Of a DNA stretch of 64,000 nucleotides, positions 7,783-31,546 are shown in pieces. The notes below the pieces were generated by a model. It searched no databases. It saw only the letters and a list, made by a program, of their open reading frames with translations, and was not told the DNA's origin. This stretch comes from Frankineae bacterium MT45 (GTDB taxonomy: Bacteria; Actinomycetota; Actinomycetes; Mycobacteriales; Jatrophihabitantaceae), in the NCBI GenBank assembly GCA_900100325.1, contig LT629697.1, positions 3,841,423 through 3,905,422 of the forward strand, in the 5' to 3' direction. How positions within the stretch are numbered: position 1 is the stretch's first letter; each line of letters begins with the position of its first letter. The position numbers and the translations under genes were made by a program.

Positions 7783-7911
7783 CCGACGGCAGCAGTGAGC
7801 GGTGCGTGATCAAAACGCAGCCAGACAATGACACTCCGTAGACACGATAGAACGGCCGGTGTAGCGTCCGAGAGGATCGAGACCTAACCGAATCTGTCAT
7901 TGCGAGGGTCG

Positions 7912-13806: not shown

Positions 13807-13828
13807 GCGGGCGATGACCTCCGCCCGC
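13807..13828. terminator. Hairpin between convergent genes
   Basis: GCGGGCG-8 bases-CGCCCGC sits between the secreted protein stop and the pstB stop and touches the pstB TAG codon. It could end transcripts from both sides. The stem is only seven base pairs, with no T-tract. Confidence 0.45.
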
Positions 13829-14769
13829 TAGCCGAAGTGGCCGTTCACGTAGGCGGCGGTGCGCGGGTCGGTCGGGGAGTCGAAGACCTCTGACGTTCGA
13901 CCGTGCTCGACGATCACGCCCGGTGTGGCGTGCTCGGCGAGGAAGAAGGCACACTGATCAGAGACTCGCGCTGCTTGCTGCATGTTGTGAGTCACGATCA
14001 CGATGGTCACGCTGGCGGCCAGTTCGGTGATCGTCTGCTCGATGACCCGGGTCGAGGTCGGATCCAGCGCAGAACACGGCTCATCCATCAGCAGCACCCG
14101 CGGCCGGACGGCGAGCGAGCGGGCGATGCAGAGCCGCTGCTGCTGGCCTCCGGAGAGAGCGCCTCCGGGCTGACCCAGCCGGTCGCGGACCTCGCGCCAG
14201 AGCCCGGCCCGGGTCAGCGACTCCTCGACCAGAGCGTCCTTCTCCGACCGGCTCACCTTGGTGCCGGTGAGTTTGAGGCCGGCTACGGCGTTGTCGTAGA
14301 TGCTCATGGCCGGAAAGGGGTTCGGCTTCTGGAAGACCATGCCGATCAGCTTGCGGGCCTCGGTCAGACGTCGCTGCGGGGAGTAGATGTCCTCGCCGTC
14401 GAAGAGCACCTCACCGGCCAGCCCGGCGCTCGGCACGAGCTCATGCATTCGGTTGAGAATGCGCAGGAAAGTCGACTTGCCACAGCCGGATGGGCCGATC
14501 AATGCGGTGACCTGCCCGGCCGGCATCAGCAGGCTGACCCGGTCCAGCACCTTGCGCTCACCGAACCACGCCGAAATCTCACGGGCGTCAATCGTCCCCG
14601 GCGGCCGTCCGGCCAGCACCCCGGCTCGCTGCCCCGCTCGCTCCCCCGCCGGAACGGCCGCGATCGGCGCCGTCTCCCAGGAACTCCCGTTGCCCGCTTG
14701 GGCATCGAAGCTGGGTACCGGCTGGCCACCGGTCTCGATTGCTGCGCTCACTATTGCGTCCCTCATCAT
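13828..14769 (-). CDS. pstB: Phosphate ABC transporter ATP-binding protein PstB
   Basis: ATPase of the high-affinity phosphate importer, binding the cytoplasmic face of PstC/PstA. Walker A 'GPSGCGKST', Q-loop 'GMVFQKPNPFP', signature 'LSGGQQQRL', Walker B 'VLLMDEP' and H-loop 'VTHNMQQA' are all intact. 'ILNRM' and 'VFQKPNPFPAMSIYDN' are PstB-specific. The start is placed at ATG 14769 (a second ATG follows directly): a longer frame to 14838 would begin inside a terminator hairpin. Even so the ABC core starts only about 60 residues in, a longer N terminus than usual. It is separated from pstSCA by about 11 kb of surface-protein genes, all on the same strand. Confidence 0.93.
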   Translation of the reverse strand: MMRDAIVSAAIETGGQPVPSFDAQAGNGSSWETAPIAAVPAGERAGQRAGVLAGRPPGTIDAREISAWFGERKVLDRVSLLMPAGQVTALIGPSGCGKSTFLRILNRMHELVPSAGLAGEVLFDGEDIYSPQRRLTEARKLIGMVFQKPNPFPAMSIYDNAVAGLKLTGTKVSRSEKDALVEESLTRAGLWREVRDRLGQPGGALSGGQQQRLCIARSLAVRPRVLLMDEPCSALDPTSTRVIEQTITELAASVTIVIVTHNMQQAARVSDQCAFFLAEHATPGVIVEHGRTSEVFDSPTDPRTAAYVNGHFG

Positions 14770-14804
14770 TCGAAGCGACCCCGGAGAGGGGTCTACACCT
14801 GTCT

Positions 14805-14844
14805 GCAGGTGTGGCCCGGACGTAGCAGTCCGGGCCACACCTGC
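14805..14844 (-). terminator. Perfect 17-base-pair terminator hairpin
   Basis: GCAGGTGTGGCCCGGAC, a six-base loop, and the exact reverse complement lie between the LANTG protein stop (14883) and the pstB start (14769). It is the strongest hairpin noted in the window and has no U-tract, as is common in actinomycetes. It should separate pstB from the surface-protein operon, or allow regulated read-through. Confidence 0.8.
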
Positions 14845-14882: not shown

Positions 14883-16412
14883 TTACCGCTTGAACCAGCC
14901 GAACTTCCGGCGCCGAGCAGCAAACGTGATACCGAGCCCTCCGGCGATCAGGAGAACCCCGATGCCGATATCGCGCGCGGTGTCGACGCCGGTGTTGGCC
15001 AGCGAACCACTGTCGGAGGCGTTGACCGCAGTCGCGTCCACTGCCGAAGCGCTCACCGTGAAGGGCACGCTGACCACCGTGGCGCCGTCGGTGAAGACGA
15101 CGTGGTGTGCGCCTGACTCCAGGCTGGTCGGCACGACCAGCGCATAGGTCACCGTGCCGTTCGAGTCAGCCGTCACCGTTCCGAGCGCGATCGGGGTCGA
15201 GTGCAGCTCGATCGAGACCACGTCGCCGGCCGCGAATCCCCCGACCTGGAGGGTGACCGACTGACCGGGGGTCAGAGTCGGCGACGATCCGAGCGGGTTG
15301 CCGTTGGAGTCGACGAACGACTTGACGGACGGGCTGGGTGACGGGGTGGAGCTGGCCGCCGGAGTCGGGGCGGCGGTCGGCGCCGGCGTCGGCGCTGCGC
15401 TTGGCGTCGGAGCCGCGGTTGCGGTCGGCGTCGGTACCGGAGTCGGAGCCGGCGTCGGAACGGCCGTCGGCGTCGGAGCTGCGGTCGCGACCGGCGTCGG
15501 AACAGCGGTCGGCGTCGGTGCCGGAGTCGGAGCCGGGGTCGGCACGGCCGTGGCCACCGGAGTCGGAACAGCGGTCGGCGTCGGCACCGCGGTCGCAACC
15601 GGCGTCGGAACAGCGGTCGGCGTCGGAGCCGCAGTCGGAGCCGGCGTCGGAACCGCGGTAGCTACCGGAGTCGGAACTGCCGTCGGCGTCGGTACCGCAG
15701 TCGGAGCCGGCGTCGGAACTGCCGTCGGCGTCGGAGCTGCGGTCGGAGCCGGCGTCGGAACAGCGGTCGGCGTCGGTACCGCGGTCGGGGTGGGCGTAGG
15801 CACCGGGGTCGGAGTGGCAGCGGGCGGCGTCGGGTAGACAAGCGTCCACGTCGAGCCGGTCACCTTGATGTCGGCCACGTCGTAGCCGGCCGTAATGGTT
15901 GCTCGGGCCCGACCGGTGCGCAGGCGCAGCTCGTAGATGCCGCCGTAGCCGTCGGTCGTGCTGGTGTCGGTGTTGGGCGAGCCGGCGATGTAGCCGGCCA
16001 GGCTGGTGTCGTCCGTCGTGCCGGTGACGACGGGGAGCGTGGTGCTGATCGACGCCGGCGCACCGACGACGGGGTAGTTCGGGGAACCGCTCAGCGGCGA
16101 CCCACCGAAGGCACCCGGAGCAGTGCCGAGCTGCGGCGTGTACGCATAGAGCGTCGCAGTGGTGTCTCCGCTGCGGATGTCGTCCGAACCGACCACGTAC
16201 GCCGCGATCGGTGCGTCGTTGATGCTCCCGCTGACGATCTGGTTTCCAGATGCATCGAAGAAGGAGAGCGTCCCAACCTTGTTCGGATCGCTACCGCCAA
16301 CCTGCCAGGGCGGCGTGTCGGCCGATGCGCCGTGACTGCTCGCCAGCACCGCCGTCACCGAAATCGTGACCAGCGCAGTCCCCACCAGGGTGCCGATCTT
16401 TCGCTTATTCAT
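14883..16412 (-). CDS. LANTG-anchored surface protein with long Pro-Thr spacer
   Basis: The 509 residues comprise a signal peptide (1-31), a 150-residue domain shared with two neighbours (about 35-185), a Pro-Thr-Ala spacer (about 190-365), an Ig-like segment (about 370-465), LANTG (471-475), a transmembrane stretch (about 481-499) and the tail 'RRRKFGWFKR'. LAXTG proteins are linked to the wall by class E sortases. The shared domain shows 'FFDASGNQIVSGSIND' and 'ATLYAYTP'. AGGAGAGG precedes ATG 16412; the start overlaps the stop of the upstream gene by eight bases, so the two are translationally coupled. The spacer should lift the domain clear of the peptidoglycan. Confidence 0.85.
   Translation of the reverse strand: MNKRKIGTLVGTALVTISVTAVLASSHGASADTPPWQVGGSDPNKVGTLSFFDASGNQIVSGSINDAPIAAYVVGSDDIRSGDTTATLYAYTPQLGTAPGAFGGSPLSGSPNYPVVGAPASISTTLPVVTGTTDDTSLAGYIAGSPNTDTSTTDGYGGIYELRLRTGRARATITAGYDVADIKVTGSTWTLVYPTPPAATPTPVPTPTPTAVPTPTAVPTPAPTAAPTPTAVPTPAPTAVPTPTAVPTPVATAVPTPAPTAAPTPTAVPTPVATAVPTPTAVPTPVATAVPTPAPTPAPTPTAVPTPVATAAPTPTAVPTPAPTPVPTPTATAAPTPSAAPTPAPTAAPTPAASSTPSPSPSVKSFVDSNGNPLGSSPTLTPGQSVTLQVGGFAAGDVVSIELHSTPIALGTVTADSNGTVTYALVVPTSLESGAHHVVFTDGATVVSVPFTVSASAVDATAVNASDSGSLANTGVDTARDIGIGVLLIAGGLGITFAARRRKFGWFKR
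15345..15830 (-). repeat. Low-complexity Pro-Thr-Ala coding repeat
   Basis: About 160 codons built from 'PTPTAVPTP' and 'APTAAPTP' units with near-periodic 18 and 30 base spacing. It encodes the spacer of the LANTG protein. Such tracts change length by slippage. An open frame on the opposite strand (Gly/Val-rich) is a by-product. Confidence 0.85.
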
Positions 16413-17346
16413 CCCGTGAACCTCTCCTAGTTGTGTTGCCTTGAAAATCTGGGGTGGTGTGACGGCCGCCCACACCGAAGCGTCGCCGGGCCAGCACGGC
16501 GACCGCGGCAATCGCTGCGATCGCCAGCCCGAGCCACCACCAACGTGTGGTCGATCCGGCGCCGGCGCTCGTGCTCTCGGCAGCGAGGCGTCCGCTCGGG
16601 GCGGCTCCCGTCAGGGGAATGGAGGCTGCGGCCACGCTCGCGGACGTCCTCGCGGCGGCGGCTGAGGCCGACGCGCCGGCGCCGGAGGCTGCCTTGGGGT
16701 GACCCGTCGAGACCGGAGGCGGTGCGGTCAGATCGGCACCGGGGAGCACACTCGTCTCGAAGGATGTTGCAGATCCGGCCGTGCAGTTCTGATCTCCCCC
16801 GCGGAGAACGCTCCAGGTATCGCCGGTGATCTGGATATCTGTCGCGTCGTACTGCTGCTGGTCGAGGGGCTTGTTCGGCGCACCCAGGTAGAGCCGCAGC
16901 TCGACGAGACCCCCTACCTTTGTTGGATATCCGGTCAGGAAGGCGTTCAGCGCGTCATCGCCGCCGGTGGCCTGCGCCATCGGGTGGGCCGCGTTGGTGT
17001 AGTTCGAGGAGGACGTGAGCATCTGGCCGCTCCACTCCGCCGGCGGAACGTTCGGTCGCGGCTGGAACGCGTAGAGCGTCGCGGTGCGACCGGGGACCGA
17101 GTACGCCGCCGGAGCCGCGCTCGCCCCCACCGCTCGCCAGACGAACGGGGACGAGGCGATGCTGCCGGAGTGGATGGGGTGGTTGCCCGCATCGCAGAGG
17201 CCGATCGTTCCGCTGGCCTTGGGGTCGGTGTACGGGACCGAGGCGGCCGACGCGGCCGACATCGGGAATAGGACGGCGAGCACCAGCGATAGCAACGTGA
17301 TCATGGCGATGCTGAGGATGCGGACACGGCGTGGCTGTCGGTTCAT
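16405..17346 (-). CDS. Membrane-anchored paralogue of the surface-domain family, 313 aa
   Basis: A signal peptide (hydrophobic core at residues 10-33) is followed by a diverged copy of the shared domain (about 40-190; 'GTIGLCDAGNHPIHSGSI', 'TATLYAFQP', 'VELRLYLG', 'DIQITGDTWSV'). An Ala/Ser-rich spacer leads to IPLTG (243-247), a transmembrane helix (about 269-286) and a 27-residue basic tail. IPLTG is sorting-like but lacks the LA of class E substrates, so the tail may simply be a membrane anchor. It sits between the DUF916 gene (4-base overlap) and the LANTG gene (8-base overlap), forming one operon. Extra Cys residues (CDAG, NCTAG) could form a disulphide. Confidence 0.75.
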   Translation of the reverse strand: MNRQPRRVRILSIAMITLLSLVLAVLFPMSAASAASVPYTDPKASGTIGLCDAGNHPIHSGSIASSPFVWRAVGASAAPAAYSVPGRTATLYAFQPRPNVPPAEWSGQMLTSSSNYTNAAHPMAQATGGDDALNAFLTGYPTKVGGLVELRLYLGAPNKPLDQQQYDATDIQITGDTWSVLRGGDQNCTAGSATSFETSVLPGADLTAPPPVSTGHPKAASGAGASASAAAARTSASVAAASIPLTGAAPSGRLAAESTSAGAGSTTRWWWLGLAIAAIAAVAVLARRRFGVGGRHTTPDFQGNTTRRGSRDE

Positions 17347-18527
17347 GCCCCCGACCCCACCGGTTGCGGTGCCCGGGATCCGCCTGGTCCGTCGCTGGAC
17401 TCCCGTTCGGGCTCAGGGTTGGGCGACGGCTTGAGTTCGCCGCTGTGCCGGCCGGTTGGACGGTTTCGCCACCATCGCCACCACAGCGCGAGGGCGAGCA
17501 GCAGTAGGACCGCGGCCACGATCACGAGGAGTAGCCAGGGCACCGCCCAGGTCGTCGCACTCCCGACGTACGGCTTCAAGGATGGGTCGGCCTGCGACGT
17601 GATCGCCGCGGTCGGTGTGAGCCGGACGGTTGCCGTGAGCCGAACGCGGGGCGCAACACCGGCTACCTCGAGTCGCTGCTCGACCGAACCACCGGGCAGA
17701 AGGGCCTGGATTTGCGGCACATTGTGGGCGCTCACACTCGAGCCGAACCAGCCGGTGAGGGTGATCTCCTGCTTGGCGTCGAGGATCGCGTTGCCGGTGT
17801 TCTTCACCGTGTACCTGACGCTGGCCGAGCCATCGGCGAGCGCACCCGAACCCGGGTGATACGTCACGTGCACGTTCTCCACCGACAGTCGCGGCAGGAG
17901 CGCGCCGGAGACCCGGACGTACATGCGCTGCGCGACCCGCTGATCGAGCTGGAACTCACCGCCACTCTTGTTGACGGCTGCGGAGACGAGCGAGGCCACC
18001 ACGGCACCGACGTGATCACCGGGGCTGGCATTCGCCGGAACCTTCAACCGTACGGGGACGATCACCACGCCGGGCACACCGTGCGAGCTGGCCGGGACCG
18101 TCACATGCCCGCTGCCGCCGACGGTTATCCACGAGCCAACGGCTACTGGTCGCTGGCCGGCCGCGTCGAAGACGACCTTGCCGTCACGGGAGGTGGTCGC
18201 ATCAGCGGCGTAGACCGCGAGCGTCAAGGGAGTGAGACCGATGTTCTCGATCGCGACATAGTCATCGAGGCCGACGCCGGGGGTCACGTTGTAGGAGAGG
18301 ATCGACCGGCTGTCGGGGTGGGTCGGAGTCGCCGGCTGGACTCCGAAGCTCGCCCGTTGCGTGCGCGGATCGGGACTCGGCGTCGGTCCGGGAGTGGCCT
18401 GGGCCGGGGCGGCGGCCGCCAGTACCGAGCAGATCAGCCCAAGCGTCGACAGAGCTCGCAGGAGATATCGCACGCGCCTACGGGCGACCTGCGGTTGGTC
18501 AGATCTCATCGGTACTACGCGGTCCAT
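17343..18527 (-). CDS. DUF916-type membrane-anchored surface protein
   Basis: This 394-residue protein has a signal peptide (about 20-46), then a DUF916-like region (about 58-190) recognisable from 'FGVQPATPTHPDSRSILSYN', 'DYVAIENIGLTPLTLAVYA', 'PGVVIVPVRLKVPANASPG' and 'HVGAVVASL'. A second beta-rich domain (about 195-320) contains 'SVRYTVKNTGNAILDA'. One transmembrane helix (about 330-350) and a polar tail end it. In Firmicutes, DUF916 proteins bind peptidoglycan and partner WxL proteins within cell-surface-complex clusters. Here the neighbours are a WxL-like protein upstream and sorting-motif proteins downstream, which fits. First gene of a three-gene operon. Confidence 0.75.
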   Translation of the reverse strand: MDRVVPMRSDQPQVARRRVRYLLRALSTLGLICSVLAAAAPAQATPGPTPSPDPRTQRASFGVQPATPTHPDSRSILSYNVTPGVGLDDYVAIENIGLTPLTLAVYAADATTSRDGKVVFDAAGQRPVAVGSWITVGGSGHVTVPASSHGVPGVVIVPVRLKVPANASPGDHVGAVVASLVSAAVNKSGGEFQLDQRVAQRMYVRVSGALLPRLSVENVHVTYHPGSGALADGSASVRYTVKNTGNAILDAKQEITLTGWFGSSVSAHNVPQIQALLPGGSVEQRLEVAGVAPRVRLTATVRLTPTAAITSQADPSLKPYVGSATTWAVPWLLLVIVAAVLLLLALALWWRWWRNRPTGRHSGELKPSPNPEPERESSDGPGGSRAPQPVGSGA

Positions 18528-18562
18528 TCATTCTCAGGCGCCGTCGGCGGCGCGGTTCGGAT

Positions 18563-18614
18563 CTGTGGGTGGGCCGACCGGCGGCATCGAGCAACCGGTG
18601 CGACCCACCCACAG
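18563..18614 (-). terminator. Terminator after the WxL-like gene
   Basis: CTGTGGGTGGG pairs exactly with CCCACCCACAG, enclosing a further ACCGG/CCGGT stem. It begins nine bases past the stop of the WxL-like gene and ends before the DUF916 start, separating the two transcripts. Confidence 0.7.
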
Positions 18615-18622
18615 GTGTTCAG

Positions 18623-20338
18623 TTAGCCAACCGTGAAGGTCAGGTGGGCGATGTAGTTGCCAGCCGCTGTGTTGCTCGGCGCGACAAGCGAGAGAGTGCC
18701 GGTAAAGCCGATGGTTCCGGTGCCGTTCGTCGCCGTGGCGAAGGTGTGCGGCGAACCCTTCAGCCCCAGCGATCCGGTGTCGGTCGTCGACACGCCAAGT
18801 GCGGCGGCGTTGTCGAAGGTCTTGACGTTCCCGGCCGCCCCCGGAAGGGCGTTACCGGCGGTGGCGACCGGCGTCAGCGCGGTGAGACCCAGGTTCTCGC
18901 CGTTGATGCTCCCGGTGCTCGAGCTGAAGTCCGTGCTCTGGACGGTGGCCGTCCAGGGCAGGTTTCCGGCCCGGGTGTCGGTGACCTGAATCGGGTCGGT
19001 ACTGGTGCCGAACGGCTTACTGGCCTCCAGGTAGGTGTCAGTGGAGTCCAATGCGAGCTGGCCGAGATCGATCGGGTTGGTCACCGTGTACGGGCTGCTG
19101 ATGGACAGAGATCCGGCGGCAACCTCAGCCTTGACGTCCGACAGCGCCGGAGCGGCGCCGGCCGGAGCGTCAGCGGTGTAGGGAACCGCGGGTGACGTCG
19201 AGCCGGTGAAGGAGGCGGCATCCGCCGGCGTGAAGACCGCGGTGAGGCTGTGGCTTCCCTGGCCGAACAGGTTGTACGCCAGTGTGGCCGAACCCGCCGA
19301 AACGACGGCGCTTCCGAGCACGCTGCTGCCATCCAGGAACTGCACCGAACCGGCGGCCGAGGACGGGGTGACCGTGGCGCTGAGGGTGTCCGCGCTGTAC
19401 GCGGCGGTCGGGCCGGAGATGGCCAACCCGGTGGTTGTCGCGACGGCCGCCGAGTGGGCGATGTTGAAACTCAAGGTGCCGGTCGAGGCGCCGACCGCGG
19501 CATTGGCCGCCGGCGTGAAGACCGCGCTGAGGGCGTGGTTGCCGACCGTGGCGAAGCTCGTCGGCAGGGTCGCGACGCTGCCGACCAGGGCCACCGGAGC
19601 ACCGAGAGCGGTGGTGCCGTCCTTGAACTGGACAGTTCCGCTGACGCTCGGTGAGACCGTGGCGGTCAGCGTCACGGCGTCGCCCTGGCTGGCCGAGGCC
19701 GGCGATGCGGTGAGCAGCGTCGTCGTCGCGGTGACGCTCGGCGCCGGGTAGACGACCTGCCAGGTCGATCCGGTCACCTCGATGTCGACCGCGTCGTAGG
19801 CCGCCGGTGAGCTGGCCTGCGACTTGTTGGTCCGCAGCCGAAGTTCGTACAGGTTGCCGTAGCCGTCGGTGGTGCTGGTGTCGGTGTTCTGACGACCTGC
19901 GATGTAGCCGGCCAGCGAGTTGTCGTCCGACGTTCCAGAGACGACCGGCAGAGTCGTGCTGATCGAGGCCGGTGCCCCGGCCACCGGGTAGCTCGTCGAG
20001 CTGCTCAGCGGGTCGCCACCGAACGACCCAGGCGCGACCCCGGCCTTCGGCGTGAAGGCGTACAGGGTGGCCGTCGTGTCACCGGCGCGAGGAGCCGTCG
20101 AGCCCACCGCGTAGGCAGCGATCGGAGTGTCGTTGATGCTGCCGCCGAGGATCTGGTTTCCACTGGCGTCGAAGAGACTGATCGAGCCGACTTCATTCGG
20201 GTCGGTGTTGCCGGGCGTCTGCCAGCCCGGCGTAACGCCGGCGGCATTGGCCGGCGCGGCTACGGCGACCAGGCCAGCGGTGGCGAGAGCCGCCACGGCA
20301 AGCCCGGCGACCGCTGTTGGTCTAAACTTGATGGGCAT
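18623..20338 (-). CDS. Secreted WxL-like protein with Ig-like repeats
   Basis: The 571 residues hold a signal peptide (1-33, ending 'PANAAG'), the shared surface domain (about 40-180, 'LFDASGNQILGGSINDTPIA'), two Ig-like repeats ('ATVSPSVSGTVQFKDGTTAL' and 'ATVTPSSAAGSVQFLDGSSV') and a C-terminal domain (about 385-571). That domain has 'VTDTRAGNLPWTATV' and ends 'NYIAHLTFTVG', the layout of WxL domains, where W-x-L sits in strands that bind peptidoglycan; here the tripeptide is WTA. There is no sorting motif or C-terminal helix. AAAGGA precedes ATG 20338 by eight bases. It is monocistronic, with terminators on both sides. Confidence 0.7.
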   Translation of the reverse strand: MPIKFRPTAVAGLAVAALATAGLVAVAAPANAAGVTPGWQTPGNTDPNEVGSISLFDASGNQILGGSINDTPIAAYAVGSTAPRAGDTTATLYAFTPKAGVAPGSFGGDPLSSSTSYPVAGAPASISTTLPVVSGTSDDNSLAGYIAGRQNTDTSTTDGYGNLYELRLRTNKSQASSPAAYDAVDIEVTGSTWQVVYPAPSVTATTTLLTASPASASQGDAVTLTATVSPSVSGTVQFKDGTTALGAPVALVGSVATLPTSFATVGNHALSAVFTPAANAAVGASTGTLSFNIAHSAAVATTTGLAISGPTAAYSADTLSATVTPSSAAGSVQFLDGSSVLGSAVVSAGSATLAYNLFGQGSHSLTAVFTPADAASFTGSTSPAVPYTADAPAGAAPALSDVKAEVAAGSLSISSPYTVTNPIDLGQLALDSTDTYLEASKPFGTSTDPIQVTDTRAGNLPWTATVQSTDFSSSTGSINGENLGLTALTPVATAGNALPGAAGNVKTFDNAAALGVSTTDTGSLGLKGSPHTFATATNGTGTIGFTGTLSLVAPSNTAAGNYIAHLTFTVG

Positions 20339-20563: not shown

Positions 20564-21739
20564 CTAGTAGGTCGTGCCCAGGTCGTTGTAGAGCGGCGTC
20601 GCCCCGGATGAGGTGATGAGTGCCTTGCCAGCCGACGTGTTGAAGTACGGCTTGGCCAGCGAACCCGGGTTGGAGAAGAGCGCCTGCACCCAGTTGAGCG
20701 TGCTGCCCGGCTGCCACGGAGTGGTGCTCGCCGCGTCAGTGTCACGGAAGATGATGTAGTACGGCAGCGGAATCGACGCCGCCGCGGCACCGTCGCCGGC
20801 CGTACCACTCAGCAGCTTCACGCCTGAGGTCAGCGGGGTGGCGCTGCCCGGGAACGGGACGCTCGGGTTGAAGAAGTACCCGTGGGCGTACAGCGTGTTG
20901 CGGCTGGTGGGGAACGGCACGATGGCGTCCACCTGCTGGGCCGCGGGCAGCGTCGTGATCGTCGTCGGGTCGTTCTGCTCAACGCTGACGACATTGCTCG
21001 CCAGCGTGATGGCCGTCCCGCCATTCGCGGCCGTGAGCGCATTGAGGAACGTGTTGCGCACACCGGCGCCGGCCTGCGGAATCTGCGGAATGATCGCGTC
21101 CGCGGATCCCGCCGAGTTACCCGGCAGCTCGTTCCAGTGCTTGTACGTGCCGTTGTAGATCCCGACCAGCTCATTGAGCGACAGCGCCGACGGGGCGTTG
21201 GTGGTCGTCGCGGTGGCGATCACCTGCGTGTCCGTGGCGATCTGCACGACATGCAGGTCGGAGCCCAGGCCGCTGGTCGCGGTGATCGGACCCTTGGCCA
21301 AGTTGCGCTGCGCGCTGGTCGGCAGGTTCGGGCTGCGCACGTAGCTGATCTCATCGGTTGCGCCATCGGCCAGCAGCGCGGAGATCCCGGCACTTCCGCC
21401 ATTGGGACGCTGAACGGGCGAGGTGCCCTCACGTAGCACGACGGTCGAGTTCAACGCGGTGGCGGTACCACCGACGTAGGAGTTGCGGCCGTTGGCGTCG
21501 GCGACGGCGTCGAAGTTGACCAGCCGGTTGACGTTGCCGGTGCTGTTGTAGCCGGCGTGCCCAGTGGTGTCACCGTCGGCGACGAAATCGACACCGTACT
21601 GCACCACGTCAGAACCGACGCCGACCACATCAGAACCGGTCGGTGCATTATCGGCATGAGCCGGTGTAACCACCACAATGGCGGTAGCGAATGCGGCACC
21701 GAAGACGGCTACCCGCATTCTGTTAGAGATTGCTTTCAC
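20564..21739 (-). CDS. Secreted PstS-like substrate-binding protein, 391 aa
   Basis: A signal peptide (residues 1-29, 'VTPAHAD') precedes a type II periplasmic-binding-protein domain. 'VVGVGSDVVQYGVDFVADG', 'IYNGTYKHWNELPG', 'QAGAGVRNTFL' and 'IPFRD'-like 'YIIFRDTD' are positioned as in PstS relatives. There is no lipobox Cys and no C-terminal helix, so in this Gram-positive cell it would be released or held by other surface proteins. The ligand is probably phosphate or a phosphate-like anion by homology and context. GTG start with AAAGG nine bases upstream. It has its own terminator and a long upstream region. Confidence 0.8.
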   Translation of the reverse strand: MKAISNRMRVAVFGAAFATAIVVVTPAHADNAPTGSDVVGVGSDVVQYGVDFVADGDTTGHAGYNSTGNVNRLVNFDAVADANGRNSYVGGTATALNSTVVLREGTSPVQRPNGGSAGISALLADGATDEISYVRSPNLPTSAQRNLAKGPITATSGLGSDLHVVQIATDTQVIATATTTNAPSALSLNELVGIYNGTYKHWNELPGNSAGSADAIIPQIPQAGAGVRNTFLNALTAANGGTAITLASNVVSVEQNDPTTITTLPAAQQVDAIVPFPTSRNTLYAHGYFFNPSVPFPGSATPLTSGVKLLSGTAGDGAAAASIPLPYYIIFRDTDAASTTPWQPGSTLNWVQALFSNPGSLAKPYFNTSAGKALITSSGATPLYNDLGTTY

Positions 21740-22115: not shown

Positions 22116-23072
22116 TCAGAATAGATTCGGGAGCAGATTCGCCGACACTCCACCGGCCAGCCAGGCGGCCGCGGCGATCGCCGGAACGGCCGCCAGCCAC
22201 ACCTGCGGGAAATGCCATTTGGCACGCACCCAGACCGTCGCCAACAGCAGCACGATTACCAGCTGGAGCGCCAGGACGAGTTCGAAGAGCGACACCAGCG
22301 AGTCGTCGATCGCCATCGCCGACTCGTTCGGCCCCAGCGTCGCCACTGCCGTCCGCACAACCGGATCACCCGAGAGGACGGCGTCGACGTAGACCACCGA
22401 ATGCGGCATGAAAGAACCGAGGAATCCCGATCCGGCCGCCGTCTCCAGGGTGAGCCGGGAAGCCCCGGCCACCGCGGCCGGGGCGGGATCACCGGCGTGA
22501 CGGATCCCGTCCACCCGGTAGCGGAAGGTCCCCTGACCGGTTGTGGCAACGATGACCGCCCCCGGGCGCAGATGATTGATGTCGTGAAACGGCGCGCCGT
22601 AGGTGACCGACTTCCCGTAGATCACGGTCGTTCCCACCTGCCCGGGCAGCACACTGGATGGGAGGTGCCCGGGGGCGTCCTTCAGGATCGCCGAGGTCGT
22701 TCCCTCCACCACGACCAGGCCGTCAATACCCGCTGAAGTCGCGCTCAGCGTGGCGATGGGCGCGCCGCCGGGGATGGGCTGCGCGAGAGGCGCATCCCCA
22801 CTGGCCAGTTCGGTGCGGAACCGGGCGTAGAGACCGTGCTGCGCACGCGATTCTTCAAAGTGGCTGAAGAACAGCAGGTAGACGATCGCCCAGGCCGCGA
22901 TCACCGCGAGCACGATCAGCGATCGCGCCGCCACGACGGTCGCCGTCTGCTCAGGCGATCGGCTCACTGACGGTGCCGGTGACGCTGACGGTGCCGGTGA
23001 CGGTGACGGCGATGAGGGCGGAGGCGGCGACTGAGCGGGCCGCCGGGATCGGGGCGAGATCGAGGTCCTCAT
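22116..23072 (-). CDS. Class E sortase-fold protein lacking catalytic residues (pseudosortase)
   Basis: The 318 residues hold a Pro/Ser-rich cytoplasmic N terminus, a helix (about 46-70), a sortase beta-barrel (about 100-235) and two further helices (about 262-282 and 290-312). The barrel aligns well with class E sortases: 'GLVVVEG', 'KDAPGHLPSSVLPGQVG', 'VTYGAPFHDI', 'LRPG'. At the catalytic positions the usual GH reads GK (Lys154 for His), the usual TLTTC reads TLETA (Ala212 for Cys) and the Arg site reads His224. Transpeptidation is therefore not expected. The C-terminal membrane helices are also unusual for class E. It starts two bases after the upstream gene's stop and so belongs to the pst operon. 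Confidence 0.85.
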   Translation of the reverse strand: MRTSISPRSRRPAQSPPPPSSPSPSPAPSASPAPSVSRSPEQTATVVAARSLIVLAVIAAWAIVYLLFFSHFEESRAQHGLYARFRTELASGDAPLAQPIPGGAPIATLSATSAGIDGLVVVEGTTSAILKDAPGHLPSSVLPGQVGTTVIYGKSVTYGAPFHDINHLRPGAVIVATTGQGTFRYRVDGIRHAGDPAPAAVAGASRLTLETAAGSGFLGSFMPHSVVYVDAVLSGDPVVRTAVATLGPNESAMAIDDSLVSLFELVLALQLVIVLLLATVWVRAKWHFPQVWLAAVPAIAAAAWLAGGVSANLLPNLF

Positions 23073-23074
23073 GA

Positions 23075-25831
23075 TCAGCGTCCGCCTCGGCCGCGGGAGA
23101 CTCTGGGATTCCTGAACATCGAGCTGACGAGCAGCCCGGGCTCACGAAGCAACTCCGGCCTCCGAGTCAAGGGGGCAGCGATGGCGGCGAGCAGGACGAT
23201 GCCGCAGAGCACCGGCAGGAAGATCCGCGCGAGCATCGAGCTGATGTCGGCCGTCTGCACTCGCTGCGACGCGAGCGTGGTCAGCGGCTGTGGCGCCACC
23301 GCCTGGGCGGCGGGCGCTGCTCCAGCCGGGACCGGTTCGGCGGCCGGTTTGGGGACGCTCACCGCGGCCGGCGGCGGCTGCGCGACCACCGATGCGGCGT
23401 CAACCGAGGTGGTCGGAATCGAGGTCGGAGCCGGGTCATGGCCCGACGGCGCCGGCACGAAGCCGACCTGGTTGTTCACCGCGTCCGCGGCCTTCAGTGT
23501 GTAGTCCTCAAGATTGCCCAGGTTGTTGGCCTTGGTGATCGGCAGGTACCCGGGCGGGAGTTCACCGTTGTCCAGACCAGGGCTCTGGCCGGCGGTCGCC
23601 GCGAAGCGAAGTAGGGTGGCCAGCTTTCCGGCGTCGCTGGGGGCGAGCCCGGTCGTCGGCACATCGGCGTAGATCAGCATCGTGCCCGGGTAGGCCTGAC
23701 GTCCGGCGGCGGTCTCCTTCAGGGTGGTGTACGGCACCGGCCACGTCCCCGAGGCGTCATCCGGCCGGGCGAGGTTCGCCGCAATTGCCAGCGAATCATT
23801 GCTGGGCGTCGCGAAGGTCCCGCCGGTCTGAGACTTCGTGTCCGGCCCATCGGCCGTCTCCAGCGCGGCCGAGTGCAGGTCATATCGGCTCGCTTCGGCC
23901 AGGGACGTCACGCCGAGCACGAACCGGTGCCCCGGCGTCTGCGGGATCCCAGAAGTCGTCAACTTCAGCGTGGAGACATTGACGTCGTCGTAGTAGCACG
24001 AGGTCTGCGAGTTGGGCAGACCGAATACCACCGCGTCGACGATCTCGTCCGGGTCCTCGGTCGGATGGGCGATCAGCTGCAGGTAGTCCGAGGGGCTGTT
24101 TTCGTAGCAGGGGTTCTGGCTGTCGTTGGCGAGCTGGGTGTGGTCGTTCAACGGCCACGATGTCACCGGCAACGCAATCTTCAAGTAGTTCGGATTGACC
24201 CTCATGCCCCACGGATCAGGCGCTCCGTCGAGAAACGCTCGGGCCTGAGGATCGGCGTTGATGTAACTGGTCAGGGCCCAGTTTGTGTCAGCGTTCGCCG
24301 ACAGCATCAACAGCGTCGATGCGTAGTCGGCGACGTTGAGCTTGGGCAGGCCAGGATTGAGCGCGATGAATTCAGGATCGTAGGTGATGTTCTGCGGATT
24401 CTTGGCGATCGCCGGGTCGGCGTCCTGCACAGCAGGGATGGCGTAGTAAGACTCCGACAGCAGTTTGGCGATCAGACGCGGAGTGAGCCGGAGCGACTGA
24501 TACGGCTGGCCCTTCGCGTCATCGATGGTGTAGCTCACCGAGAATCCACTGATCGCCACGGGAGCCTGTACAACTGGGTGGTTCCAGCCCGCGTCCGGAG
24601 CGCGACTGGAGAACGCGGCCTCGATGTTGCCGGCCTGCAGCAGGTTGCGCGCCTCATCATCACCACGCTGAACATGCTGGAATGTGAACTTCTTCGGGTC
24701 AGTGCAGAAGGCCGGCTCCCACTGCGACGTCGCCTCGGTCAGGGGTATCGACCCGTAGATTGCGATGCTGGAAGATTGATCGCCGCTCAACGAACAGACG
24801 CTGTCATCCGGCGCGAACGAGAGCGGCACGACGAGTCGGTTCTGCCAGTTGGAGGCGCTCCACCAGAGCGCTCCGGTCACCGTCTGGCTCGACGGCGCTC
24901 CGGCGCCCTGCCACTGCGACCCCGGCGCGTAGTTTCCGTTCGCCTCGCAGGCCGCGATGTCATCGTCGTCTGCGCCGGCGGTGGTGGCGTCGCAGCCGAT
25001 TCCGAGAATGGGGACGGCGACCAGTGAGCACGGAACGGTTGACGAGCAGCCCAGAGTGGCGTTCTCACTGTGGCTCGTGACCTCGAAGGACGTCGACCCG
25101 GTTCCGTCGGTCTGGGTGACGCCGTAGGTGTCATTGGAGGGCAGCCCGCTCTCGACCGCCTTCGCCTCAGGAGGGAGCGTCCCACACGGGCGAAGAGGCG
25201 ACGTGGCCGAGGATTCGTAGAAGACATCGCCGTTCTGCGCCCGCAGTGGCAGCCAGTGTTCGGCCAGGTCGCGGCTCATGCAGCTGGCCGGGAAGGCTGG
25301 TGCGCCGGCCCGCACCTCGCGCTCGGTCGCGGTTGCCGCGGCGTCCAGCCGGTACGGCGGATAGGCCGTCGAGGCCGAGCTCTGAAAGCGTTCCTTGTAG
25401 GAGTTGGTCCAGCACGTTTCGGGCGTTACCGCCGAAGCTCCATCGCCACCCGTTCCCCGGCACTCCAGCAGCACGAAGGGATACTCCTCGTACTGCGCGG
25501 CGTCAGCGGAGTGAACCTGCGAATTCAATGCGCCAGTGGGATGGGCCCCTGACCACGAAACATCGATCAGTTCCCGGCCGCGCAGCTCGGTTGTCTGACC
25601 AACCGACATCGTGATGTGGTCAGTCTCGACCGTGGCCTTCGTGCCATCTGCGTTGAGGTTCGTCCGCGTCGCGGTGCCTGACACGGTGACGGCGGAGCCG
25701 GTCGGGTCAGCCTTACTTGGATTGGCCAGAACGACGCTGAATCCGACGGAGGCCGCCACCGCAGCCGCCGCGACCGCTCGTCGCCACGGCGAGGTGAGCG
25801 GGTCGCGGTGGCGATGAGCCCCGATTGTCAC
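23075..25831 (-). CDS. Large membrane-anchored PstS-like binding protein, 918 aa
   Basis: A signal peptide (about 15-42, 'SKADPTG') leads into a very long extracellular part. Segments such as 'IAIYGSIPLTEATSQWEPAFC', 'ALWWSASNWQNR' and 'SLRLTPRLIAKLLSESYYAIP' resemble the two lobes of PstS-type binding proteins, broken by long insertions rich in Cys. A Pro/Ala stretch (about 810-850) precedes one helix (869-888) and a basic tail. It begins with a GTG overlapping the pstS stop by four bases, and pseudosortase follows after two bases, so all are co-translated. Ligand unknown; phosphate or an organophosphate is the contextual guess. It is about 2.5 times the length of ordinary PstS. Confidence 0.7.
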   Translation of the reverse strand: MTIGAHRHRDPLTSPWRRAVAAAAVAASVGFSVVLANPSKADPTGSAVTVSGTATRTNLNADGTKATVETDHITMSVGQTTELRGRELIDVSWSGAHPTGALNSQVHSADAAQYEEYPFVLLECRGTGGDGASAVTPETCWTNSYKERFQSSASTAYPPYRLDAAATATEREVRAGAPAFPASCMSRDLAEHWLPLRAQNGDVFYESSATSPLRPCGTLPPEAKAVESGLPSNDTYGVTQTDGTGSTSFEVTSHSENATLGCSSTVPCSLVAVPILGIGCDATTAGADDDDIAACEANGNYAPGSQWQGAGAPSSQTVTGALWWSASNWQNRLVVPLSFAPDDSVCSLSGDQSSSIAIYGSIPLTEATSQWEPAFCTDPKKFTFQHVQRGDDEARNLLQAGNIEAAFSSRAPDAGWNHPVVQAPVAISGFSVSYTIDDAKGQPYQSLRLTPRLIAKLLSESYYAIPAVQDADPAIAKNPQNITYDPEFIALNPGLPKLNVADYASTLLMLSANADTNWALTSYINADPQARAFLDGAPDPWGMRVNPNYLKIALPVTSWPLNDHTQLANDSQNPCYENSPSDYLQLIAHPTEDPDEIVDAVVFGLPNSQTSCYYDDVNVSTLKLTTSGIPQTPGHRFVLGVTSLAEASRYDLHSAALETADGPDTKSQTGGTFATPSNDSLAIAANLARPDDASGTWPVPYTTLKETAAGRQAYPGTMLIYADVPTTGLAPSDAGKLATLLRFAATAGQSPGLDNGELPPGYLPITKANNLGNLEDYTLKAADAVNNQVGFVPAPSGHDPAPTSIPTTSVDAASVVAQPPPAAVSVPKPAAEPVPAGAAPAAQAVAPQPLTTLASQRVQTADISSMLARIFLPVLCGIVLLAAIAAPLTRRPELLREPGLLVSSMFRNPRVSRGRGGR

Positions 25832-27513
25832 GACGCATCCCCCGATGACCGGATGGCGAGCCGACGCGCGTAGAGAGCCGGCCCGATGAGGACCAGCACG
25901 AAGAGCACAACGGCCAGGATGATCAAGATGACCCCGATCCCAGCCTGATCGTCAGTGGAGAGTGTCTGCGGTACGGCGATCGGTTCTGAATTGGACGTAG
26001 CGACCAGGCCCGAGTCATTGAAGGCAAGAGCGTCTGCGCCTTGACTCGCCGAGGCGGCGGCCGCGGGTCTTGCCGCTCCACCTGCGGCGGCAGCACCACC
26101 ACCCGCGGTCGCAGCATCACTACTCACGTTCGCCTTCTGTGCAGCTGCTGCCTTGTTGGCCGCAGCGGCACCGGCCGGACTGCCGTTGTAGGAACCGACC
26201 CCGGCATCGCACGGCCCCGCGCCCTGCTTGTCACAGGCCGGCGGTTGGGGTGCCTCGACGGCAAGCAGGTTCTTGCTCAGATCATGACGGTCGAAGGTGG
26301 GGTTTCCACAGTTCGAGGCATCCAGGTGGGCGACATCGACCGCCGCGTCGGCTTGATGAAGCTTGGCGATCTGAGCGAAGCCGGCCTGCACCAGGTTGAT
26401 CGGCAGCGAGGAGTAGCCAATAGGGCCGATCTCCTTCTGCCCCTGACAGATCGCATAGTTCAGGAAGTCGGCGTTCGACTGCTTCTTCTCGCTCGTCATG
26501 CGCGGGTCGCTGCCGGGCGGAGTCTCGTTGGGTCCATTCGCGATCGGCAGAATCGAATACACATAGGAAGAGAGCGGATACGTACGCGGATCCGTGTTGA
26601 CGTAGACGTTGCTGAGATCAGCAGTGAGGTAGTTCTGATCGTTGGCATTCAGGTCAAAGACCGCCTTCGTCAACGCGACAGCCACGTTGTACTGCGTCGG
26701 AAGGGTGTAGTAACCAGCCTTGTTGAGCAACTTGGCCACCGGGTAGTTCAGGGCCAATGCGTAGGAGTACTCCTCGACGCCGATCGAGCCGTTCGCATTC
26801 GGGTTGGTGAGGAAGTTCATCACACCGTCCGAGCCCGACTGCGCCTTCTGCGGACCGTGCGACTTCCCGCAATTCAAAGGGAAGTACTCCGTCTCGGCGT
26901 CAACCCCACCATTGCAGGGGGCCCAGTCGCTGCCGTCCACCTTCGCCAGGTACTCGGTGAACATGGCCGTGGTGCCCGCCCCCTCGGAGTGCACGACCGG
27001 GATGATCGGCAGCGAGGGGAGCGCGTGATTGTTGTTGTCGGCCGTGACAGCCGGGTCGTTCCAGTTCGTGATCTTGTTGGTGAAGATCTTGGCCAGCGTG
27101 ATGGGTGACAAGCGAAGATTGCGCACCATCTGGTTTCCAACCTTGATGTGGTACGGAAACGCCGTCCCGCCGGCTGCGATGGGAAGGTAGGCCAGCTGCC
27201 GCCCATTTGCCGTATCCGGTTCGTGAGTTGTCGGGTCCTTGCCTTGGAACGGGATGTCGGAGATCGCCATGTCGTTTGCATCATTGGCGAAATCCTTGCG
27301 CCCCTGAGCTGACCCCGAGGGCGTGAAGTCCGCCTGGATGCCTTGCGAATGCACGTCGACGACCCACTGCCCGACCGCCGCGGCCGCCCAACTCGAGCCG
27401 GTCACTTCGATCTCACCGTGCCCGGGGGCGGCGGCGGCCACCGCCGGATTGACCGCCGCCGTCAGCAGCAGTCCAACCGATAGCAGCGCGACTGCATGCT
27501 TGTGCCTCTTCAT
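25828..27513 (-). CDS. pstS: Phosphate-binding protein PstS, C-terminally membrane anchored
   Basis: This 561-residue protein captures phosphate outside the cell for PstC/PstA. A signal peptide (1-28) without lipobox Cys is followed by the PstS domain: 'EVTGSSWAAAAVGQWV', 'DIPFQGKD', 'SEGAGTTAMFTEYL', 'GSDGVMNFL' and 'GSIGVEEYSYAL'. An Ala-rich spacer (about 450-510) leads to a transmembrane helix (about 526-549). Most actinobacterial PstS are lipoproteins, so anchoring by a C-terminal helix is different. ATG 27513 is chosen because AAAGG lies seven bases upstream; the frame is open further upstream only as antisense-like sequence inside pstA. The start overlaps the pstA stop by one base. Confidence 0.9.
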   Translation of the reverse strand: MKRHKHAVALLSVGLLLTAAVNPAVAAAAPGHGEIEVTGSSWAAAAVGQWVVDVHSQGIQADFTPSGSAQGRKDFANDANDMAISDIPFQGKDPTTHEPDTANGRQLAYLPIAAGGTAFPYHIKVGNQMVRNLRLSPITLAKIFTNKITNWNDPAVTADNNNHALPSLPIIPVVHSEGAGTTAMFTEYLAKVDGSDWAPCNGGVDAETEYFPLNCGKSHGPQKAQSGSDGVMNFLTNPNANGSIGVEEYSYALALNYPVAKLLNKAGYYTLPTQYNVAVALTKAVFDLNANDQNYLTADLSNVYVNTDPRTYPLSSYVYSILPIANGPNETPPGSDPRMTSEKKQSNADFLNYAICQGQKEIGPIGYSSLPINLVQAGFAQIAKLHQADAAVDVAHLDASNCGNPTFDRHDLSKNLLAVEAPQPPACDKQGAGPCDAGVGSYNGSPAGAAAANKAAAAQKANVSSDAATAGGGAAAAGGAARPAAAASASQGADALAFNDSGLVATSNSEPIAVPQTLSTDDQAGIGVILIILAVVLFVLVLIGPALYARRLAIRSSGDAS

Positions 27514-28634
27514 CAACGAACCTTTCGCGGGCGGGCCGCCAGGCGGGCCAGCGTGAATAGGGTGATCACCAGGGCGAGCAGCACCGCCGCGGCGCCGAAG
27601 CCACGCGCGATGTCCTGGGTCTCCCCCGATCGCACGGACGTGTAGATGAACAGCGGCAGCGAGTTCATCGGATGGTTCAACGGGTTGGTGTTCAGGACGT
27701 TCGACGCCCCGGAAGTGAGCAGCACCGGCGATGTCTCTCCGACCATCCGCGCGATGCTGAGGATCAAGGCGGTCGCCAACCCGGGGCGAGCCGACGGGAG
27801 TACGACCCGCCATACCGTCTGCCACCGGGTCGCACCCAGGGCGTAAGACGCTTCCCGGAGACCGCCCGGCACCACACGCAGGACCACGTCGGCTGAGCGG
27901 GCCATAATCGGCAGGCCCATCACGGCGAGCGCTATCGCGGCGGCGATACCGCTCCGGGGCACGTGCAGATCAACCAGCAGCACGGTGTAGATGAAGAGCC
28001 CGGCGACGATGGACGGCAGCGCCGTCATGGCCTCGACCACGGTCTTCACCCAACGAGCCAACGGTCCCCCCACCTCGGAGAGGAAGACGGCGGTCGCGAT
28101 ACCCAGCGGCAGTGCGATCGCCACCGCGATACCGACCTCGATGAGTGTTCCGACGATCGCGTGGACGATCCCGCCATCGCTCAACGAATCGGTCGGGCGG
28201 GTTGTGGCCATCGTCTGGGTGAAGAAGTTCCGATGATGAAAGGCCTTCCATCCTTTGAAGAAGGTGAATACCAGCATTGACGCCAACGCGAGACCGACCA
28301 CCACCGGCGCCGCGATCACAACGGTCGACGCCACCCGGTCGAGGACGACGGCCCGTGGTGCCGACATCGCGGTGAGGCCGGCGTAGAAGACCACGAAGAG
28401 CACGAACCAGGCCATCACAAAGCCAAAGCGCCCGGAGAAGGGCAGCAGCCTCTCGTAGAGCAGCCACACAAAACCCAGCGAACCGACGGCGGCTCCGACG
28501 AGCGTCAGTCGATCCTCCGGCGTACGCGAGGAGAGTGCTCGGCGCCGCTGAGCCGGCAGTGAAGGGCGTGGCGGTACAACCGGTTGCGGCTGCGCGGCCG
28601 CCGTCACTGTGGGTGTGGCCAGTACGTCGGTCAT
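27513..28634 (-). CDS. pstA: Phosphate ABC transporter permease PstA
   Basis: Inner-membrane subunit, 373 residues with about seven hydrophobic segments. The binding-protein-dependent permease domain includes 'VEAMTALPSIVAGLFIY' and the EAA loop 'LREASYALGATRWQTVWRVVLP', which contacts PstB. The first 40 residues are a polar Pro-rich cytoplasmic extension, and an additional pair of helices (about 50-110) precedes the domain, so the N terminus is longer than in E. coli PstA. It overlaps pstC by four bases and pstS by one, giving the order pstC-pstA-pstS rather than the common pstS-pstC-pstA. Confidence 0.92.
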   Translation of the reverse strand: MTDVLATPTVTAAAQPQPVVPPRPSLPAQRRRALSSRTPEDRLTLVGAAVGSLGFVWLLYERLLPFSGRFGFVMAWFVLFVVFYAGLTAMSAPRAVVLDRVASTVVIAAPVVVGLALASMLVFTFFKGWKAFHHRNFFTQTMATTRPTDSLSDGGIVHAIVGTLIEVGIAVAIALPLGIATAVFLSEVGGPLARWVKTVVEAMTALPSIVAGLFIYTVLLVDLHVPRSGIAAAIALAVMGLPIMARSADVVLRVVPGGLREASYALGATRWQTVWRVVLPSARPGLATALILSIARMVGETSPVLLTSGASNVLNTNPLNHPMNSLPLFIYTSVRSGETQDIARGFGAAAVLLALVITLFTLARLAARPRKVR

Positions 28635-29698
28635 AGTTCGGTCACTGCTCCGGATCGGCCGCGCGCCACGATCATCGCAGCGAGTGTGTTGACGCCCAGG
28701 GTGATGAGAAAGAGAACGAACCCAGCACTCAGCAGTGCTGAAAGCTGTGAGGGCGTCGCCTCCTTGTAGCCTTCGGCGATCAGGGATGCGATCGTGCTCG
28801 TCCCCGACTCCAATGGCCGGAACTTGAACTCGAAGGTCTGCGAGATGATGAGGACGACCGAGATGGTCTCGCCGAGCGCACGCCCCAGGGCCAGCATCGT
28901 GCCGCCGATGATTCCGCTACGCCCGAACGGGATCACTACGGTGCGAACCATTGCCCAGCGAGTCGCGCCGAGCGCGATCGCCGCCTCCTTCTCGCCGACC
29001 GGCGCCTGCGAGAAGACCTCCCGCATCACCGATGTCGCCATCGGAAACACCATCAAGCAGACGGCGATGCTCGCAATGAATACTGACCCCTCGAAGCTCG
29101 GGAATCCAGGACTGGAACTCCAGACCGGATAGTTGACGTCGGTGTGAACCCGGAAGATGCCCGTCCAGCCGAAGTACTTACTCAGCCAGAGCGCGATGTG
29201 GGTGGCGTGCGGCTGAATCAGCGCGAGGCCCCAGAGTCCGTAGATGATGCTGGGGACCGCGGCCATCAGGTCGACCAGGCGGATCAGCCGATCACGCAGG
29301 CGCGGCGGAGCCCAGTCGCTGATAAACAAGGCCGTCAACAGCGCCAGTGGAAACGACATCACCAGGGCGAAGAGCGCCACCTGCAGCGTGCCGAAGAGCA
29401 CGGACCCAATTCCCAGCACATCGCGGTTGGGCAGCCAGCGGGTCTCGGTAAAGAAATGCAGGCCGTAGTGGTGCAGGGTCGGATAGGACTGCGACCCGAG
29501 AAAGATAGCGATCGAGGAGATGATGACCAGGACGAAGGCACCGACGGCCTGCGAGCCATGGACGAAGAAGCGGTCGGACACGGCGAGGCGAGCCTGGATG
29601 GAGCGCGGGGCATCGGCCGTTCCGTCGGCCCGCAGCGCCCCGCCGACCGGCCCATCACCGACGGCCGGGTCGAGTTGCGGCAAGTCGGTGGTAGTCAC
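28631..29698 (-). CDS. pstC: Phosphate ABC transporter permease PstC
   Basis: 355 residues; about six helices. 'LVDLMAAVPSIIYGLWGL' and the EAA loop 'KEAAIALGATRWAMVRTVVIP' identify a phosphate-type permease that pairs with PstA. 'GRALGETISVVLIIS' is also typical of PstC. A 35-residue polar N-terminal extension precedes the first helix. The GTG start at 29698 has AGGA five bases upstream. It is the first gene of the leftward pst operon, so the operon's promoter should be in the 190 bases to its right. Confidence 0.92.
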   Translation of the reverse strand: MTTTDLPQLDPAVGDGPVGGALRADGTADAPRSIQARLAVSDRFFVHGSQAVGAFVLVIISSIAIFLGSQSYPTLHHYGLHFFTETRWLPNRDVLGIGSVLFGTLQVALFALVMSFPLALLTALFISDWAPPRLRDRLIRLVDLMAAVPSIIYGLWGLALIQPHATHIALWLSKYFGWTGIFRVHTDVNYPVWSSSPGFPSFEGSVFIASIAVCLMVFPMATSVMREVFSQAPVGEKEAAIALGATRWAMVRTVVIPFGRSGIIGGTMLALGRALGETISVVLIISQTFEFKFRPLESGTSTIASLIAEGYKEATPSQLSALLSAGFVLFLITLGVNTLAAMIVARGRSGAVTEL

Positions 29699-31434: not shown

Positions 31435-31546
31435 GGCGATCATCTCCTGAGGTTCGGGCCGGGTTGGTGGCCGTTCACCTCTACTACGAAGGCGCCTGCC
31501 CCGATCCGACAGTTCCGTGAAGTTATCTCCGCGACGCCGGCGCTGG

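Follow-up and report, generated by a model that had tools for sequence, protein, structure and literature searches.

WxL proteins are nearly confined to Lactobacillales and Bacillales according to the available text of a 2023 paper, whose main text contains none of the terms Actinobacteria, sortase, phosphate or ABC (ATP-binding cassette) transporter (PMC10599100), and the usual WxL gene cluster includes an LPxTG protein (PMC9772566, available text). A cluster whose layout resembles that in the available text of both papers is found in the actinobacterium Frankineae bacterium MT45, within a window of 64,000 nucleotides (the whole stretch of DNA analysed here, from contig LT629697.1). As in the clusters of Lactobacillales and Bacillales, a WxL-like protein adjoins a transmembrane (TM) protein resembling the WxL-interacting protein (WxLIP, DUF916) and an LPxTG-like protein. 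Here, however, the pair occurs in an actinobacterium and is embedded in an array of Pst-type transporter genes together with a sortase homologue that has lost its catalytic residues (pseudo-sortase), the WxL domain has diverged, and its protein begins with an N-terminal domain without a named family, which is shared by three surface proteins of the array.

The array also recalls the phosphate ABC importer PstSCAB in its PstB, two permeases and PstS homologues, and differs from it by three PstS-like proteins (two of them with C-terminal TM helices), by extra surface proteins, by changed binding-site residues and by the existence of a separate canonical pst locus in the same genome. Its pseudo-sortase belongs by sequence to the fold family of class E sortases (SrtE), from which it and its relatives differ in having the catalytic Cys in 0 of 79 aligned rows, in having lost the catalytic His in 76 of 79, and in falling short of the NCBIfam class E cut-off. 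More surprising than the domain is where it occurs, in a Pst-like module that is repeated in the genome and includes three PstS-like proteins and a catalytically dead sortase. The first-pass annotation, which described the domain on three proteins, missed the transporter module, the pseudo-sortase, the WxLIP-like gene (17343-18527) and a second cluster in the genome, and its interpretation is partly supported. No description of this gene set was found in the open-licence literature.

The transporter array and its relatives

The three genes belong to an array of 11 genes on one strand, running from position 29698 of the window down to 13828. Two permeases are followed by PstS, a large binding protein (PBP918), the sortase homologue, a short binding protein (PBPshort), the protein combining the shared domain with Big_3_5 and WxL regions, the WxLIP-like protein, a small membrane protein, a protein with a C-terminal LANTG motif, and PstB. 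Several adjacent genes overlap by a few bases. The genome, a single contig of 4.23 Mb, holds three copies of the pst-type ATPase. A second cluster with the same core order lies ~73 kb from the array and encodes a small membrane protein beside three surface proteins that bear the domain. The third ATPase copy belongs to a plain pst operon at 886 kb and shares 55% identity with the PstB of the window. The core gene order is thus repeated in both clusters of the genome, and it recurs in related genomes. The second cluster also contains a protein of the IgGFc_binding family (241 bits; L009 7770-9455, minus strand) and a domain protein whose stalk consists of four nearly identical TIG repeats, likely recently amplified (L009 9517-11163, minus strand).

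Within the family of the host, the domain was detected in 8 of 24 genomes and PBP918 in 10, and all 8 domain genomes have both (Fisher p 6e-5 with the 24 genomes treated as independent, which they are not). The two genomes with PBP918 and no domain are a contig fragment (G008) and a distant match (G019, E 8e-47). The domain was not detected in any of 37 genomes belonging to the other families of the order. Among 396 genomes sampled across the phylum, where counts are lower bounds because few candidates were scored per genome, the domain occurs in at least 3 (profile A1) or at least 4 (profile A4), the fourth having a partial domain (E 7.5e-4) with an internal stop, and PBP918 occurs in at least 11, of which 8 are at E below 1e-10. 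One distant member, G286, has the module with two domain proteins and no WxLIP match.

A scan of genome contigs with a single domain protein gave 65 pattern matches, none of them confirmed, and a scan with the PBP918 alignment confirmed 167 related actinobacterial loci. These include Jatrophihabitans, Nocardioides, Marmoricola, Aeromicrobium, Cellulomonas, Dactylosporangium and metagenome-assembled genomes (MAGs) of Acidimicrobiia, the nearest named relative being a Jatrophihabitans MAG from the same family as the window. Locus counts rest on the best 80 of the 167, which are biased towards the PBP918 of the window, and some loci repeat genomes of the family and phylum samples, so the sets are not independent.

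Gene content was compared in the 53 loci whose sequence extends 9 kb or more downstream of PBP918, shorter ones being left out. The pseudo-sortase is present in 53, PstS in 51, PstB in 50, PBPshort in 49, the domain in 26, WxLIP in 17 and the WxL-like protein in 15. These counts suggest a core of transporter, PstS-like proteins and pseudo-sortase, to which domain and WxL cassettes are added as variable surface parts. In most domain-bearing loci the domain lies inside the transporter array, in the interval between PBPshort and PstB or nearby. The domain and WxLIP occur together in 11 loci and neither occurs in 21; the domain alone occurs in 15, so that it appears to follow the transporter and not WxL. 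An arrangement in which WxL/WxLIP forms the core and the domain is its satellite was dropped on the same figures, as WxLIP is found without the domain in 6 of the 53.

Pseudo-sortase and PstS-like proteins

The sortase homologue matches Pfam PF04203 (47.5 bits, cut-off 26.6) and class E structures (PDB 5go6, E 2.6e-15), the catalytic His being aligned with Lys/Arg there and with Arg in the profile, and scores 64.6 against the NCBIfam class E cut-off of 160. Sortases act through a catalytic Cys and His, and these two columns were read in 80 rows, comprising 79 open reading frame (ORF) segments from 80 loci and the window protein; one L108 fragment can be read at the Cys but not the His position, and for L100 the reverse holds. 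Among the 79 readable rows of the Cys column, 45 have Ala, 25 Ser, 6 Gly and 3 Thr, and none has Cys. The 79 readable rows of the His column have Arg (70), Lys (6) or His (3), and the three His rows lack the Cys. The window protein contains no Cys at all, nor do 38 of the 79 segments (>150 residues). Judged from these columns, the homologue cannot be a cysteine transpeptidase. No description of a natural conserved pseudo-sortase was found in the open-licence literature, and such a conserved protein would be surprising in itself. Three other sortase-domain genes exist in the genome. In the one at 484 kb both GHR and TLTTCH are intact, which provides an active-looking, canonical class E enzyme that could act on the LANTG protein.

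PBP918 has only a sub-threshold Pfam PBP match and no sequence relative in the PDB. In an AlphaFold model built from 55 sequences, with a predicted local distance difference test (pLDDT) of 86.2 and a predicted template modelling score (pTM) of 0.83, residues 314-752 take the PstS fold, with Foldseek E 8e-12 to Mycobacterium tuberculosis PstS-1 and a VIA-align Z of 32.1 to the same protein (318 residues, 2.8 A, residues 314-750). On this model PBP918 is a PstS-fold protein. Its Cys-rich first ~310 residues were barely covered by the structure search, and a modelled helix at residues 829-852 fits a C-terminal TM anchor. When the PBP918 profile (54 of 74 long segments plus the window) is aligned to the module PstS (E 3.1e-9), the phosphate-loop residues are seen to be lost.

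The phosphate site of PstS is lined by T10, F11, S38, D56, R135, S139, G140 and T141. The PstS of the window keeps S38, D56, G140 and T141 and has Ser at T10, Trp at F11, His at R135 and Ala at S139, while the canonical PstS of the same genome keeps Arg at the 135 equivalent; across the module PstS proteins the site residues are mixed. The equivalent of F11 is Trp in 67 of 68 module PstS proteins (one gap); this binding-site count leaves out 5 weaker PstS ORFs.

The shared N-terminal domain

The first-pass annotation had placed a common N-terminal domain on three neighbouring proteins (14883-16412, 16405-17346 and 18623-20338). BLASTP and hidden Markov model (HMM) searches bear this out: all three ORFs lie on the minus strand at these positions, and each carries a single copy of a domain of ~155 residues. 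Identity between the LANTG and WxL-like proteins is 67% across ~181 residues (E 8.6e-71), and the small membrane protein is 30-34% identical to the other two (E 2e-16 to 7e-11, depending on direction). The motifs quoted earlier for all three are near-verbatim in the first two copies and have diverged in the small membrane protein, where they read CDAGNHPIHSGS, ATLYAFQP, VELRLYL and TDIQITGDTW. Positions G7, G22, P53, R123 and W149 are invariant in 27 copies from this and related genomes, and G22 and R123 remain so in a wider set of 69. The three types of anchor were also recognized correctly, namely a C-terminal LANTG-TM-basic tail, a C-terminal TM helix and a C-terminal WxL-like domain. The first of these reads LANTG ... 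IGVLLIAGGLGITFAARRRKFGWFKR, with an LPxTG-like motif, a TM segment and a basic tail apparent from sequence reading, and the NCBIfam LAxTG models match it below threshold (E 0.0017 and 0.0065).

No named family could be assigned to the domain at first, and none can be assigned now. The window copies match no Pfam or NCBIfam family at curated cut-offs, further members (27 against Pfam, 69 against NCBIfam) give only scattered chance-level matches, and a PDB sequence search found no relative (E 0.12 to 0.24). An AlphaFold2 model from 69 sequences (pLDDT 94.3, pTM 0.90) is nearly all beta with one short helix and, being confident, indicates an Ig-like beta-sandwich outside named families. The domain thus shares a generic sandwich arrangement with Ig-like, FnIII and Asf1-type domains and differs from them in having no sequence match and a best Foldseek E of 0.13 against the PDB, where nothing reached E <= 0.001; the best match among viral models was at E 0.064. 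By Pfam, NCBIfam and PDB it is a new family of a common fold type. VIA-align ranked sandwiches such as Asf1 and FnIII highest (best Z 6.3 over 108 residues, 3.7 A); Asf1, FnIII and C2 were rejected as structural relatives because such scores fall within the range that common arrangements reach with this tool. The PDB and Pfam searches also gave ribosomal S11 (E 0.17 and 0.019) and a collagen adhesion protein (E 0.12), which were dismissed as chance matches.

The related loci yielded 67 domain copies, with matches covering 120 or fewer profile positions left out, and 66 of them (all except L113:9695-10225) form the A4 alignment together with the three window copies. In a tree of 80 copies, those on small membrane proteins form one clade of 33 rows (support 100/99), of which 31 were labelled automatically and two (L078 and L084) also fall inside. 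Copies on other anchors form an exclusive locus group in 12 of the 13 loci that have two or more, as judged by eye (11 starred, L082 unresolved), and in this genome the copies of one cluster remain separate from those of the other. Such grouping by locus fits co-evolution with a shared local partner.

Table 1. Array genes and shared-domain copies in the window (positions counted from its first nucleotide)
Feature	Position	Strand	Evidence
Pst-type ABC permease, first array gene	28631..29698	-	Pfam BPD_transp_1 39.4 bits, cut-off 26.4
Second Pst-type ABC permease	27513..28634	-	Pfam BPD_transp_1 69.7 bits
PstS-like binding protein, C-terminal TM helix (start codon by eye)	25828..27513	-	PBP_like_2 117.6 bits; PDB PstS chains, best E 1.6e-16
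PBP918: Cys-rich ~310-residue N-terminal part, predicted PstS fold, linker, C-terminal TM helix	23075..25831	-	AlphaFold model and VIA-align
Pseudo-sortase: class E-like homologue, TM helices at both ends	22116..23072	-	Pfam Sortase 47.5 bits; column check
PBPshort: secreted PBP_like_2 protein without TM anchor	20564..21739	-	Pfam PBP_like_2 32.4 bits, cut-off 27; alignment
Shared domain, two Big_3_5 stretches, C-terminal WxL-like domain	18623..20338	-	Pfam, HMM
WxL-interacting protein (WxLIP/DUF916-like), C-terminal TM	17343..18527	-	PF06030 18.2 bits, below cut-off 27.3; family profile
Small membrane-anchored protein with shared domain	16405..17346	-	ORF, HMM
Shared domain, Pro/Thr-rich stalk, C-terminal LANTG-TM-basic tail	14883..16412	-	ORF, HMM
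PstB-type ATPase, last array gene	13828..14838	-	Pfam ABC_tran 115.3 bits
Shared domain copy 1 (WxL-like protein)	19742..20206	-	HMM E 3e-57; AlphaFold model pLDDT 94.3
Shared domain copy 2, diverged subfamily (small membrane protein)	16798..17229	-	HMM E 2.6e-46; own clade 100/99
Shared domain copy 3 (LANTG protein)	15828..16292	-	HMM E 1.9e-54

Proposed function and its rivals

A tentative but plausible reading is that the array encodes a wall-spanning, Pst-like capture system in which the shared domain is a docking module and the pseudo-sortase a scaffold. The three surface proteins would serve for display in an actinobacterial module that has a duplicated ABC transporter of the Pst type at its base. 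Its three PstS-like proteins would stand at different depths, with the PstS-like protein and PBP918 held by TM helices and PBPshort secreted, and would capture a phosphate-like oxyanion or phospho-compound for delivery to the permeases and PstB. On the small membrane protein the domain would mark where the complex meets the membrane, and on the LANTG and WxL-like proteins where it meets the wall. All copies may share one binding partner within the module, with PBPshort, PBP918 and the pseudo-sortase as the likeliest candidates. The pseudo-sortase would serve as a membrane-bound scaffold or peptide binder, and the canonical class E sortase of the genome would attach the LANTG protein. The common binding partner proposed in the first-pass annotation has become more likely through the linkage to PBP918 and the grouping by locus. 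It is possible, if doubtful, that Actinomycetota have here a wall-spanning ABC machine of a class not described before, in which a duplicated Pst transporter and three PstS-fold receptors at different depths are kept in order by a conserved dead sortase and by a new Ig-like docking domain, with one and the same partner held on covalent-wall, non-covalent-wall and membrane anchors.

The analysis establishes the domain family, its gene linkage, the duplication of the cluster, the PstS fold of PBP918 as modelled and the loss of the catalytic residues from the sortase homologue, while direct contacts, substrate, import direction and the role of the scaffold are what we infer. Several observations weigh against the capture system. 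The domain was not detected in 27 of the 53 long-flank loci, where the transporter core would work without it. G246, a distant member of the phylum and one of the 3 clear domain genomes of its sample, gave no PBP918 match; its domain gene, at L064 10943-12361, is cut off by the end of the contig. The grouping by locus is accounted for equally well by repeated duplication or gene conversion. No PHO-box-like pattern was found upstream of the first gene of the array (8 matches in the window, 6.5 expected by chance). The equivalent of Arg135 in the 68 module PstS proteins is Arg in 34, His in 29, Gln in 3, Asp in 1 and Pro in 1, and with such an altered site the substrate may not be phosphate, which is uncertain on these residues. 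Domain-bearing loci have His or Gln at this position in 25 of 32 cases (Arg in 7), and loci without the domain have Arg in 27 of 35, an association that may be explained by shared ancestry.

The domain might instead be an ordinary adhesin tip for an outside ligand such as a soil polymer, a mineral, a host or another cell, with the Pst genes as co-expressed neighbours that form no complex with it. Its N-terminal position on stalks (Pro/Thr repeats, Big_3_5, TIG, FN3-like) is the classic adhesin layout, and the module accompanies the domain in only two thirds of the phylum-sample genomes with matches at E < 1e-30, G246 being the one without PBP918. This explanation is nonetheless somewhat unlikely, since the stalkless copy on the small membrane protein, which forms its own clade across distant actinobacteria, would be a poor site for an adhesin, and since the domain lies within the transporter array in most loci that bear it. 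Less probable again, and on balance unlikely, is a sensor or assembly system in which the PstS-like proteins read a signal or hold an envelope complex and the ABC components power signalling or export. Three PstS-like proteins for each permease pair, altered binding-site residues, a catalytically dead sortase and the lack of a PHO-box-like site, unlike the canonical pst of the same genome, would all suit it. Permeases and ATPases of the ordinary Pst-type families are importers, however, and it is to these families that the module proteins belong; moreover, the phosphate-binding Arg is kept in half of the module PstS proteins (34 of 68). It is very improbable that the sortase homologue has kept enzymatic activity through a different nucleophile, such as Ser, and joins the domain proteins to one another or to the wall. 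Its presence in every long-flank locus (53 of 53) and the Ser at the Cys column in 25 of 79 rows would be expected of such an enzyme, but the same column holds Ala in 45 rows and Gly in 6, 76 of 79 rows no longer have the His, and Cys is missing altogether from 38 of 79 segments.

The passage of nutrients or signals through thick walls to membrane transporters is poorly known, and this gene set, with its PstS-like proteins on different anchors, its sortase relative lacking catalytic residues and its WxL-type wall proteins, offers a concrete system for examining it. The linkage also suggests testable functions for proteins that are likely named phosphate-binding, sortase or hypothetical in Nocardioides, Cellulomonas and their relatives.

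WxL components, promoters and neighbouring genes

The WxL-like domain of the window scores 20.6 bits against Pfam PF13731 in the whole protein and 24.0 when excised (cut-off 25), and its paralogue in the second cluster passes at 26.7 bits; 9 of 22 family members match at E <= 0.01. The dual Trp-x-Leu motif has been lost, the window protein having PWTATV and AHLTFTV and the consensus of 22 rows WTASA and TFT. This points to a divergent WxL domain. The assignment of WxLIP is firm at the family level, as far as profile comparisons go: the family profile matches the solved Enterococcus faecium WxLIP1 (EfmWxLIP1, 9i25) at E 1.6e-9, and PF06030 is matched at E <= 0.01 by 9 of 20 members (best 3.3e-10), the window protein alone being below the cut-off. 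The region where DUF3324 would be expected as the second domain is present and carries no assignment, with no DUF3324 match listed for the 20 members at E <= 0.01. The WxLIP alignment was built from 18 of 22 locus segments and the WxL alignment from 20 of 21, and both also include two copies from this genome. Four loci of Cellulomonas and other Micrococcales (L120, L125, L146 and L148) have two WxLIP-like genes without the shared domain in the same slot of the module, and most of them also have two WxL-like genes.

Scans for PHO boxes used the generally known consensus. In the canonical pst operon, a PHO-box-like direct repeat with one mismatch lies just upstream of pstS (L074 10519-10536, minus strand), in a stretch where 1.1 matches with up to 3 mismatches are expected by chance. 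The stretch with the second cluster has 5 PHO-box-like matches against 1.2 expected, none of them promoter-like in placement. A scan for sigma-70-type promoters between 13500 and 30200 of the window found none. Directly upstream of the array (29888-31716, minus strand) are genes for an extracytoplasmic function (ECF)-type sigma factor with DUF6596 and for a YCII-domain protein, a possible regulator pair.

Beyond the other end of the array, two genes lie on the plus strand. A secreted protein of 508 amino acids with Pro/Thr-rich linkers (12272-13798), which matches no Pfam family above cut-off, faces the array end. The 1221-amino-acid protein at 7900-11565, adjoining the array, has six DUF7507/DUF11 stretches and a C-terminal LALTG-like motif, TM segment and basic tail, features by which it is likely another wall-sorted protein.

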